From: Silvibacterium dinghuense
GTDB lineage: Bacteria; Acidobacteriota; Terriglobia; Terriglobales; Acidobacteriaceae
Direction: 5' to 3'
DNA: 64,000 nt
Assembly: GCF_004123295.1 (NCBI RefSeq)
Contig: NZ_SDMK01000001.1
Span: forward strand, 1,426,001-1,490,000
Below are positions 29,604-33,088 of this stretch, in pieces. Each line of letters opens with the position of its first letter. Within the stretch, counting starts at the first letter, position 1. The position numbers were made by a program, and so were the translations under genes. Below the pieces are notes generated by a model, which worked only from the letters and a program-made list of their open reading frames with translations, was not told the origin of the DNA and ran no database searches.

Positions 29604-31079
29604 TCAGCCTCCGATACGCTCGAAGAGCCGGAATACAATCTTGTCTACCACGTCGCTCTCCCAGTCGGGCTTGCTTGGGTCGAAGTCAAACTTGATTCCC
29701 ACAGTATCTGTGGGGATTCCAACAAATTTAGTTTCATCCAAATAAATGGGAATGACCTCACCTTCTGGAACCCTAGGCAGAAAGCATTCTCGCTCAAAAG
29801 TAGGCCAAATCTTGGTCTCGTAATATTTATCGAGTAAGCAGATAACTAAACGACACTTCTTAGCGAAGATTTCTCTAAATGAATTTCCCCAAGCTTTACC
29901 TAAGAAATTATTTTCAAACAATTCATCGAAAAAAATGCTCGCATCCAAGATTTCTATATTGTCTGCAATGCTCTTCGCGAGAGCTCGATTTTCACCCGCA
30001 AAAGAAATCGCAAACTCATATTCATAGTCTCGGGATTCATCTCTAAACCCGCAATCAATTCTCAATGACTCCCAGTTGAGATGCTTAACATAATAAAAAA
30101 CTGCAGGATCCTCAATCGCAAACATCTTCGTTTCAGCGTTGTAGTAAAAAAGCTTTTCACATTCTGGCTTCTCTGCAATTAAGACCTTAAGCCTGTGCTC
30201 TTTTACGTTATTTACGCTGCCACGGACATCTGCATTCGCATTGGCTAATTCATTTAGATCAATAATCGAACTATCTTGCTGACCTATCGCGCGGAGCAAC
30301 TTGAAATACGGATCATTACTGGGACGAAATCTACGACCACGACAAAACTGCTTTACGCCCTCATGATAGGCCGAACGAAGCCGGTCAACGACTCGAGCGC
30401 GCAGAGAAGCCAAATTAATACTTATGCTTCTAGGTGTATCTTGGGTTTCTAAAATATCTTGTCCTGTGCATAGGGTTTGGCATAGATGCTGAGTCAGCCA
30501 GTAGTCGCCACGGCTTTCTTCAAAAAGTAATTTCCAATTTTCGATTGCAATATTGAGCTGTTCACATCCAGTCAGAATGAGCTTCTGAATGTCCTCCTCG
30601 CGCCCCAGCTGAATCCTGTGTATTCCCACTCTTTTGGCAACATCCGGCACCAGGTGTATCAATTCACTGCCAACCTGGTTGATACCAACCAGCACAAGCT
30701 TTGGAAGTCTCACTTCCCCCTCGGGCTGCTCGGCAGCCAATTTCGCAAGATCAGCTAACGAGGCTTGCAAGTCAGAGTGGAGCCTATGGAAATCGTCTAT
30801 TACATACATTCCGCCCTGGCGGTTTACGACTAACTCAGTGATCCTAGTTACATCTTCCGCTTTGCGGGCGCTTAATGATACGACGGAAGCTCCACTACCG
30901 AGCTTCTCAACAGCCTTCGTTATGCAAGTCGTCTTTCCTGTTCCTGACTGACCTTCGATAATCAGAGGTTTGCCAGGCCTGCGCAGATCTAGAAAGATGT
31001 CATTGAAGTTTGGAGGCTGCACAAAAGTGAACTGTGGCACCCCCTCAGTGACGAACACTTCTTCGAGCAGCCGCTTCAT
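29604..31079 (-). CDS. P-loop NTPase fused to a C-terminal TIR domain
   Basis: 491 residues from an ATG at 31079 with GGAGA upstream; a TTG at 31103 is an alternative. Residues 33-170 form an AAA/ORC-like NTPase with Walker A GQSGTGKTT (43-51), Walker B MYVIDDF (91-97) and a sensor-like LVLVGINQ. Residues about 255-335 look like a winged helix. Residues 352-480 are a TIR domain (YEYEFAISFAGENRALAKSI; IFFDELFENNFLGKAWG; CLLDKYYE; WPTFERE). The WxxxE pair (W425, E429) holds the expected catalytic Glu of NAD-cleaving TIRs. The gene is visibly more AT-rich than its neighbours, suggesting horizontal transfer. Probable defence effector; not proven. Confidence 0.82.
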   Translation of the reverse strand: MKRLLEEVFVTEGVPQFTFVQPPNFNDIFLDLRRPGKPLIIEGQSGTGKTTCITKAVEKLGSGASVVSLSARKAEDVTRITELVVNRQGGMYVIDDFHRLHSDLQASLADLAKLAAEQPEGEVRLPKLVLVGINQVGSELIHLVPDVAKRVGIHRIQLGREEDIQKLILTGCEQLNIAIENWKLLFEESRGDYWLTQHLCQTLCTGQDILETQDTPRSISINLASLRARVVDRLRSAYHEGVKQFCRGRRFRPSNDPYFKLLRAIGQQDSSIIDLNELANANADVRGSVNNVKEHRLKVLIAEKPECEKLFYYNAETKMFAIEDPAVFYYVKHLNWESLRIDCGFRDESRDYEYEFAISFAGENRALAKSIADNIEILDASIFFDELFENNFLGKAWGNSFREIFAKKCRLVICLLDKYYETKIWPTFERECFLPRVPEGEVIPIYLDETKFVGIPTDTVGIKFDFDPSKPDWESDVVDKIVFRLFERIGG

Positions 31080-31180
31080 CAACTCAGATTCTCCGATCAG
31101 CAACTAGGCTAGGACAAAACGAAATTACCACTTAAGCAAGCATGAATAAATCTGTTATTTGCAAACGCCCAATCCCCCAA

Positions 31181-31210
31181 TTGACGCCCCAAGCCCCTCC
31201 CCGCTAACCT
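31181..31210 (+). promoter_or_regulatory. Likely sigma-70 promoter of the fluoride unit
   Basis: TTGACG at 31181-31186, an 18-bp spacer, then TAACCT at 31205-31210. It would start transcription near 31217, just before the riboswitch aptamer. Confidence 0.55.
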
Positions 31211-31221
31211 AGAACTCAAAT

Positions 31222-31310
31222 ACGAAGGCGATGGAGTTCGCCTGAACCGCGCCTCCCGGTTCTGCTTTGATGAGGCGCTGATGACTCCTACGACTATCCC
31301 TTCGTAGGAG
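31222..31310 (+). ncRNA. Fluoride riboswitch (crcB motif) with ribosome-site switch
   Basis: The 5' hairpin GGCG-ATGGAGTT-CGCC (31227-31242) has the conserved loop. GGAGT can pair with ACTCC in GATGACTCCTAC (31280-31292), the crcB-motif pseudoknot. GCGCCTC/GAGGCGC (31249-31255/31272-31278) is a perfect 7-bp stem, followed by CTGATGACTCCTAC. The same CTCCTACGA can instead pair with TCGTAGGAG (31302-31310), which contains the ribosome binding site for the TTG start at 31316. Model: fluoride stabilises the pseudoknot, frees TAGGAG and turns translation on. Match to the motif is by eye. Confidence 0.88.
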
Positions 31311-31315
31311 CACGT

Positions 31316-33088
31316 TTGAAGTCCATCTCTGCACATCCTCTCCTTGCCGAGCAGTCGCATATCTTTGTCCAGCTGTTGCGCTGGCTGGTCATTGCCTCCT
31401 GCGCCGGCGTCCTGGGCGGCTCGGCCTCGGCGCTGCTGCTGGCCTCGCTGAACCTGGCCACCGCCGTCCGCGAGTCGCACCTGTGGCTCATCGCGCTGCT
31501 GCCGCTGGCCGGACTTTTTGTCGGCTGCCTCTACAAGTACCTCGGCTCTTCGGTCGAGGCGGGCAACAACCTCATCCTCGAAGAAGTGCATGACCCGCAG
31601 GCGACCATCCCCCTGCGCATGACGCCGCTCATCCTGATCGGCACCTTCCTCACCCACCTCTTCGGCGGCTCGGCCGGACGTGAAGGCACCGCCATCCAGA
31701 CGGGCGCCTCGCTTGCCGACCAGCTCACGCGCCTCTTCCGGCTGCGCAACGGGGATCGCCGCATCCTGCTCATGGCCGGCATCAGCGCGGGCTTCGGCTC
31801 GGTCTTCGGAACGCCGCTGGCGGGCGCGGTCTTCGGCCTCGAGGTGCTGGCCATCGGCCGCCTGAACTATGCGGCCATCTTCCCCTGCTTTGTCGGGGCC
31901 TTCGTGGGCGACTTCACGACGCACGCCTGGCGCGTCCACCACACGATCTACACCGTGACGCAGGTTGCGCCGCTGAGCCCGCGCAACCTGCTCGCAGCCT
32001 GCGCGGCGGGCATCGCCTTCGGGGTAACAGCGATGCTGTTTGCGAAGGCTACGCACGCGGTCTCGCACTTCATGAAGAAGCACATCGCCTGGGGGCCGGC
32101 GCGGCCGTTCACCGGCGGCATCGTGGTGGCGCTGGCCGTGGCTGCCGTGCACACCACGCGCTACATCGGCCTGGGCGTGCCCACCATCGTCGCATCCTTC
32201 CAGCATCCGCTCCACTGGTACGACTTCGCGGCCAAGTTCGCCTTCACCGCAGTCACGCTGGGCTCGGGATTCAAGGGCGGCGAGGTCACGCCGCTTTTCT
32301 ACATCGGATCGACGCTGGGCAACGCACTTGCGCATGTGCTGCCCCTGCCCACTTCGCTGCTGGCCGGCATGGGCTTCGTGGCCGTCTTTGCCGGGGCCGC
32401 GAACACGCCGATCGCCTCGAGCCTGATGGCGGTCGAGCTCTTCGGGGCCGAGGCCGGAGCCTTCGCCGCCATTGCCTGCGTGGTGAGCTATCTCTTCTCC
32501 GGCCATTCCGGCATTTACCACGCGCAGCGGCTGGGCAGCAGCAAGCACGCCGCGCTTACGCACGAGGAGGGCCTTTCGCTGGCGCTCATCGCCAAGCAGC
32601 GCACGGAAGCCGATGCCGACACGCTCCTCATCCCCGAAAACGAACGCTTTCCCGACAGCTATCCCGGAGGCATCCTCATGGCGAACACCGCCGTTCTTCG
32701 CGTCTACTTCAGCACTGCACAGGTTCTGAAACATGACTCCTGGTGGCGGCGTATGCTGCCGCAGAATCTCGGCGCCTATCTCCTCGAACAGGCGCGGGAG
32801 GCGGGTATCGAACAGGCCCTGCTGCACCGCGTGACCGGCGGCTATCTCAAGAATCAGAAGCTCATCATGGACTCGAGCGACATTCCACCGCTGCGCCTGC
32901 CGCAATGCCTCGAGCTGGTCGGCGAGGAAGATCTGCTGCAGGAGTTCCTGCGCCGCAACCAGAAGCACCTGGGCGGAGCCCGTGTGATGTTTCTTCACGG
33001 CAAAGAAGCGGAGTTCGAAGCGGAGCTGGAACGGCAGGAGCTCGAAGAGGCTATCGCCATCGAACGCAACGATCAGCTATTACCCTAG
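31316..33088 (+). CDS. CLC-F type fluoride/proton antiporter fused to a DUF190 domain
   Basis: 590 residues, TTG start. The CLC part has the F-type motifs GNNLI (83-87), GREGT (Glu123 as gating Glu) and GFKGGEVTPLF with Glu323 and Thr325, plus Tyr401, in place of the chloride-type GSGIP/GREGP/GxFxP. Residues about 459-565 (LRVYFSTAQVLKHDSWW, HRVTGGYLKNQKL) match the PII-like DUF190 fold that is often encoded beside fluoride channels of the CrcB family. The riboswitch upstream independently says fluoride. The antiporter expels fluoride; the role of DUF190 is unknown. Confidence 0.92.
   Translation: MKSISAHPLLAEQSHIFVQLLRWLVIASCAGVLGGSASALLLASLNLATAVRESHLWLIALLPLAGLFVGCLYKYLGSSVEAGNNLILEEVHDPQATIPLRMTPLILIGTFLTHLFGGSAGREGTAIQTGASLADQLTRLFRLRNGDRRILLMAGISAGFGSVFGTPLAGAVFGLEVLAIGRLNYAAIFPCFVGAFVGDFTTHAWRVHHTIYTVTQVAPLSPRNLLAACAAGIAFGVTAMLFAKATHAVSHFMKKHIAWGPARPFTGGIVVALAVAAVHTTRYIGLGVPTIVASFQHPLHWYDFAAKFAFTAVTLGSGFKGGEVTPLFYIGSTLGNALAHVLPLPTSLLAGMGFVAVFAGAANTPIASSLMAVELFGAEAGAFAAIACVVSYLFSGHSGIYHAQRLGSSKHAALTHEEGLSLALIAKQRTEADADTLLIPENERFPDSYPGGILMANTAVLRVYFSTAQVLKHDSWWRRMLPQNLGAYLLEQAREAGIEQALLHRVTGGYLKNQKLIMDSSDIPPLRLPQCLELVGEEDLLQEFLRRNQKHLGGARVMFLHGKEAEFEAELERQELEEAIAIERNDQLLP

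Follow-up and report, generated by a model that had tools for sequence, protein, structure and literature searches.

Fluoride riboswitches acting on translation and others acting on transcription have already been described, as has their control of CLC antiporters; the literature compared here comprises PMC13273304, PMC11077080, PMC9495176, PMC8814607, PMC7266159 and PMC2864571. In PMC13273304, Pseudomonas syringae and Burkholderia pseudomallei serve as translational controls, and two well-studied riboswitches, those of Bacillus cereus (crcB) and Thermotoga petrophila use termination, the pseudoknot strand also taking part in a competing stem, P4. The same paper describes the exchange of a pseudoknot strand into the terminator stem and variants extending through P3. 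Throughout the riboswitch family, bound fluoride is described as raising expression (excerpts of PMC9495176 and PMC13273304).

In this work we focused on an element of this family from Silvibacterium dinghuense, lying within a 64,000-nucleotide stretch of DNA, referred to here as the window, whose numbering is used throughout. It resembles the translational RF01734 type in its aptamer, in the class of the gene that follows and in the expected ON control, and differs from it by its occurrence in the Acidobacteriota, by a ribosome-site arm extended to TCGTAGGAG and by a TTG start. With the B. cereus and T. petrophila riboswitches it has in common the second use of the pseudoknot strand in a competing stem, whereas the 3' arm of that stem is here the ribosome site, without a U-run. 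Since exchange of the pseudoknot strand and control of CLC genes are both known, the type of switch is not new, but the example is. We propose, with a probability of about 0.85, that the element acts at the level of translation as an ON switch for the export of fluoride, a proposal drawn from sequence comparison and folding.

The aptamer was found at positions 31218-31297 of the forward (+) strand, on which all features given below lie unless stated otherwise. The covariance search that the initial annotation had proposed as a check was run with cmscan and gave a match to RF01734 (Fluoride) over the full model (1-64 of 64) at 55.2 bits, above the family gathering cut-off of 34 (E 1.5e-12). This was the sole Rfam match at gathering thresholds in the whole 64 kb, and a relaxed Rfam search of 801 bases (30900-31700) returned RF01734 with an E value of 1.8e-14. 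Every element of the crcB motif that had been annotated is present. The P1 hairpin (31226-31231 with 31238-31243; core GGCGATGGAGTTCGCC, 31227-31242) is given by RNAfold and by the Rfam consensus structure. The pseudoknot lies at the positions claimed, its 5' strand GGAGT (strand 1) at 31233-31237 and its 3' strand ACTCC at 31284-31288, and the 7-bp helper stem of the annotation is the P3 of RF01734, formed in the fold of the isolated aptamer by GCGCCTC (31249-31255) and GAGGCGC (31272-31278). ACTCC and the overlapping anti-ribosome-site arm CTCCTACGA (31285-31293) together make up strand 2 (31284-31293). In an alignment of the 16 CLC leaders described below, the pseudoknot pairs were formed in 98.8% of cells, and P3 showed two-sided changes at 5 of its 7 pairs with 72.6% of cells paired, a value that we ascribe to gaps in the alignment across P3. 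By its score, its pseudoknot, its P3 and its position 5' of a fluoride-resistance gene, the element is a member of RF01734, and it would be expected to bind fluoride and magnesium. Two relatives, Acidipila sp. EB88 (locus L033, 1680-1990) and G066, from the same genus as the window (contig C1, 4565951-4566175), carry a further fluoride aptamer on the opposite strand, placed back to back with the CLC riboswitch; no such second, divergent aptamer was found in the window by the relaxed Rfam search of 30900-31700.

The aptamer match ends 18 nt before the start of a gene (31316-33088) with a TTG start, whose product of 590 aa belongs by similarity to the CLC-type fluoride/proton antiporters (Pfam Voltage_CLC, 1.5e-71; PDB 6d0j, 1.2e-63). 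CrcB was rejected as the target gene on these grounds. The best solved relatives, 6d0j, 6d0k and 6d0n, are all CLC-type fluoride/proton antiporters with E values of at most 1.3e-62; ordinary chloride CLCs gave at least 2e-10. The alignment with 6d0j covers residues 14-407 and includes the common glutamate of GREG, leaving 183 C-terminal residues of the window protein beyond it. The two differ in their motifs, which read GREGV and GMNLV in 6d0j and GREGT and GNNLI in the window protein. We take GREGT and GNNLI to be marks of CLC-F, and the Asn or Met of the GxNL motif is presumably the residue of fluoride selectivity. The annotated fluoride exporter thus holds by similarity, the product being of CLC-F type and predicted to transport fluoride. 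Within the genus, G066 alone among eight further genomes has a close copy (64%), the best proteins of the other seven reaching 25-30%. A scan of named genomes with six short peptide patterns, which detects close relatives only, gave a single relative, a 75% identical protein in Acidipila sp. EB88 (Acidobacteriaceae), preceded by the same riboswitch arrangement.

Divergently from the antiporter, a TIR/AAA-like protein is encoded at 29604-31103 on the opposite (-) strand. It matches the defence candidate PDC-S59 (8.3e-13), its TIR_2 match being below the Pfam cut-off of that family. As any match was found in only 5 of 60 family genomes, and a full-length one only in its own genome, it may be a recent arrival.

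A promoter had been annotated just before the aptamer. A promoter-like pair is indeed present at 31181-31210 (TTGACG at 31181, 18 nt, TAACCT at 31205), but it is weak, with 8 of 12 consensus bases, and the standard promoter scan listed no promoter for it, so that a strong promoter is unsupported.

The alternative pairing with the TAGGAG site, 5 nt before the TTG, was found where it had been claimed, over 9 bp. CTCCTACGA (31285-31293) is perfectly complementary to TCGTAGGAG (strand 3, 31302-31310), with a loop of 8 nt, and strand 3 holds the GGAG (31307-31310) located 5 nt upstream of the TTG at 31316. Because strand 2 is used in the pseudoknot as well as in this hairpin, the two pairings are mutually exclusive. 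The hairpin alone is worth -12.9 kcal/mol. Among 2000 dinucleotide shuffles of the leader, 0.4% reached a helix of 9 bp between strands 2 and 3, with G-U pairs allowed. The segment 31286-31312 folded better than 200 of 200 shuffles (z -4.5), as did the 123 nt of aptamer plus leader (z -3.95); a longer stretch of 136 nt gave z -2.98 (2 of 200 shuffles as good) and the aptamer alone only z -1.58 (14 of 200).

Without fluoride, the conserved 3' strand of the aptamer, CUCCUACGA, would pair with UCGUAGGAG and hide the antiporter gene's ribosome site. Once fluoride and magnesium are present, this strand would instead be locked in the pseudoknot GGAGU/ACUCC, the GGAG would be freed and the pump would be made. 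We infer the direction of this control from the behaviour of the riboswitch family.

Folding energies bear on how such a decision might be taken. The minimum-energy fold of the unbound RNA (RNAfold) has -44.0 kcal/mol and pairs the ribosome site with a probability of 0.99-1.0. When P1 and P3 were imposed and the pseudoknot strands kept free of other pairs, the aptamer fold had -30.7 kcal/mol, the pseudoknot itself being uncounted. The unbound fold is thus better by about 13 kcal/mol than the aptamer without its pseudoknot, which is not the true gap, neither the pseudoknot nor the magnesium-fluoride cluster being counted. This is large for an equilibrium switch, and switching is therefore probably co-transcriptional, or kinetic: transcription yields the aptamer first, and fluoride would have to lock it before strand 3 appears. 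In the constrained aptamer fold the GGAG was still paired at 0.92-0.97 by a program that cannot model the pseudoknot; in the best constrained structure its partner is CTCC at 31340-31343, within the gene, and the TACGA/TCGTA pairing persists. The unbound fold also contains a hairpin, GAACCG/CGGTTC (31244-31262), that excludes P3. It was rejected as a conserved feature, reaching 5 bp in one other leader (L152) and at most 3 in the remaining 14 of the family CLC set.

Conservation was evaluated in a census of 185 leaders, comprising 2 from the own genome, 146 from the family search (among the matches listed), 18 from the genus and 19 from the phylum search; most of the places listed for the phylum, repeated places, the named locus L033 and three genus loci (L051, L055, L056) were left out. 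Using profiles grown from the window protein and from that of the second fluoride element of the own genome (L002), 114 loci were classed as CrcB, 17 as CLC and 54 as other. A fixed rule served to assign start codons, and some rows of the census carry a wrong one.

In all 16 CLC leaders collected from the family (window included; among the matches listed), a GTAGGAG site faces CTCCTAC of the aptamer. The hairpin of strands 2 and 3 has 8 or 9 bp in each of these 16 distinct leaders, with 0.49 expected to reach 7 bp in shuffles, and folding placed strand 2 on the leader with a probability above 0.5 in all of them (7.3 expected from shuffled leaders). Since most loci have an aptamer ending in CTCC, a match of CTCC to GGAG proves little alone, and the informative positions are those outside these four bases. 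Immediately beyond the aptamer core, 7 leaders have a G-C pair, 5 a G-U and 4 an A-U, and none is unpaired there. GTA precedes GGAG at 16 of 17 CLC starts and at 16 of 73 CrcB starts; among other open reading frames, defined mechanically as at least 150 codons and not as annotated genes, it does so at 0 of 62 starts in the flanks of the loci and at 0 of 93 when those of the window are added. Within the window, one start of 32 has this extension, that of the antiporter gene itself.

Since 7 of the 9 hairpin pairs are invariant in the 16 CLC leaders, formal covariation is weak there: of 500 shuffles, 32 attained the covariation score and 240 the percentage paired. Exchanging leaders between loci was uninformative owing to their common consensus, own and swapped leaders giving 8.31 and 8.22 for the CLC hairpin, and 9.27 and 9.00 for the corresponding pairing of strands 1 and 4 in CrcB leaders. 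Across the phylum the two arms vary in matching fashion, as CTCCTG/CAGGAG, CCCCTGC/GCAGGGG, GCCTAC/GTAGGC and GCCTGT/ACAGGC. Over the 48 loci with a strand 2 other than CTCCTAC, the mean was 4.58 with own leaders, hardly above the 4.42 with foreign ones, and only 12 of the 48 reached 6 Watson-Crick pairs with their own leader. The second fluoride element of the own genome (L002, 1501-1585) scores 27.4 bits, below the cut-off of 34. The gene immediately downstream is a CrcB gene (Pfam CRCB, 3e-32) with a TTG start, and the CTCCTG of the element faces CAGGAG in the same design; the element is probably real and missed by the Rfam threshold.

The two-state translational switch of the initial annotation is thus supported by comparison, through the hairpin in 16 of 16 CLC leaders, its GTA extension and the matching arm variants of the phylum, control itself being what the model predicts. 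Three other explanations were weighed against it. The same hairpin could act on transcription, as an intrinsic terminator or by exposing a Rho site, burial of the ribosome site being secondary. Termination is what the B. cereus and T. petrophila riboswitches use, according to PMC13273304, and a terminator form, in which a hairpin of the strand 2:3 type is followed by at least 5 T in 8, occurs in 12 of 181 distinct leaders of the phylum, including two (L042 and L160) before inorganic pyrophosphatase genes. In the window, by contrast, the hairpin is followed by CACGTTTG, with 3 T in 8 and no U-run, its arm is only 5 nt from the start codon, and the scan listed no terminator-like site on the + strand. 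The reading as an intrinsic terminator was rejected on the sequence behind the hairpin and the empty scan, and transcriptional control as a whole is unlikely.

The second explanation comes from the CrcB leaders, for which counts refer to the 94 of 108 family leaders in which a start lies no more than 60 nt away and the ribosome-site match is at least 4 (among the matches listed). In L017, L067, L004, L094, L081 and other family CrcB leaders, the sequence leading into the start codon, AACTCCATCG, reads as the reverse complement of the aptamer segment CGATGGAGTT. Strand 1 folded onto the leader with a probability above 0.5 in 59 of the 94 (7.1 expected), as against 2 of 16 CLC leaders (2.2 expected). 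The P1 hairpin sequence forms helices of at least 8 bp with the leader in 65 of the 94 distinct leaders (17.2 expected) and in 32 of 41 from genomes G000-G079, which represent about one per genus. The best 10-mer abuts an NTG start in 57 of the 94. The CrcB leaders being related by descent, the excess over shuffles does not count independent events. Both exchanges appear at once in the folds of L017, L067 and also L081; the CrcB frame of L081 matches Pfam over its first third only, below cut-off, L002 being CRCB by Pfam. Substitutions in strand 4, the start-codon partner of strand 1, kept the pair in 51 cases and broke it in 30 (30 of 81) among 55 CrcB leaders, which is supportive but not clean. 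These data suggest that most family CrcB leaders use a double strand exchange, in which strand 2 would take the ribosome site and strand 1, CGAUGGAGUU, would take AACUCCAUCG over the start codon; the ribosome site and the start region would thus be copies of the two pseudoknot strands, both freed on fluoride binding. Among the papers listed in full-text searches, none describes a two-strand exchange by its title or in the passages compared, and we do not claim that it is unpublished.

In the window, such a double exchange would pair GATGGAGTTC, around strand 1, with a possible weak strand 4, GAAGTCCATC (31318-31327), over the start codon, both pseudoknot strands then being used in the unbound state. 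Nine of the 10 pairs can form, with p 0.007 for this 10-mer chosen after the fact (5000 shuffles) and 0.05 for the 10-mer used in the CrcB analysis, and family CrcB leaders show this design strongly. The pairing is nevertheless missing from the minimum-energy fold (P at most 0.13), its longest contiguous helix has p 0.84, and the CLC leaders as a class stand at the level of chance. Conservation of strand 4 was sought in the other CLC leaders and not found, the window scoring 8 and the other 15 at most 7. Double exchange in the window is thus unsupported apart from what is at most a weak and unconserved trace; it is just as improbable as transcriptional control, and we regard the second exchange as unproven here. 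Whether two translational designs are sorted largely by gene, with one long hairpin between strand 2 and the ribosome site before CLC-F genes, a double exchange before most CrcB genes and a weak trace in the window, is a question on which we would give even odds.

Least probable of all, and very unlikely, is that the hairpin is a by-product without control function, as any aptamer ending in CUCCU pairs with any GGAG: CTCC does match any GGAG, 7 of 9 pairs are invariant in the family CLC set and swapped leaders pair nearly as well, but in all 16 leaders the match extends across GTA to one or more bases beyond the aptamer core, and GTA before GGAG was absent from all 93 other starts.

Fluoride riboswitches are numerous in some related genomes, with 14 matches in G114, 14 in G169 and 11 in G141, several of them clustered (G169, contig C12, 699-818 kb). 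Genes behind three of these elements encode an NADH-dehydrogenase-like protein (L020), a pyrophosphatase (L042) and, about 275 nt further on, a CheB/CheR fusion (L097). The clusters of these three genomes look like fluoride-response islands. In a multi-copy group including L016, L020 and L023, the P3 region contains CTTCATGGC, by eye the reverse complement of GCCATGAAG, which surrounds the ATG opening a short leader reading frame before the NADH-dehydrogenase-like gene; this pairing is a possible third way to gate a start codon.

In the translational switch proposed for the antiporter gene, the strand conserved for its part in ligand binding would also be the anti-ribosome-site strand, one short sequence doing both jobs, and the mechanism is therefore testable by two compensating changes. 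Beyond this gene, a single kind of aptamer seems, from the comparison, to be coupled to several outputs among related bacteria, namely a ribosome-site hairpin, a start-codon exchange and a terminator, a variety that would be useful for understanding how aptamers shift between the control of translation and that of transcription.
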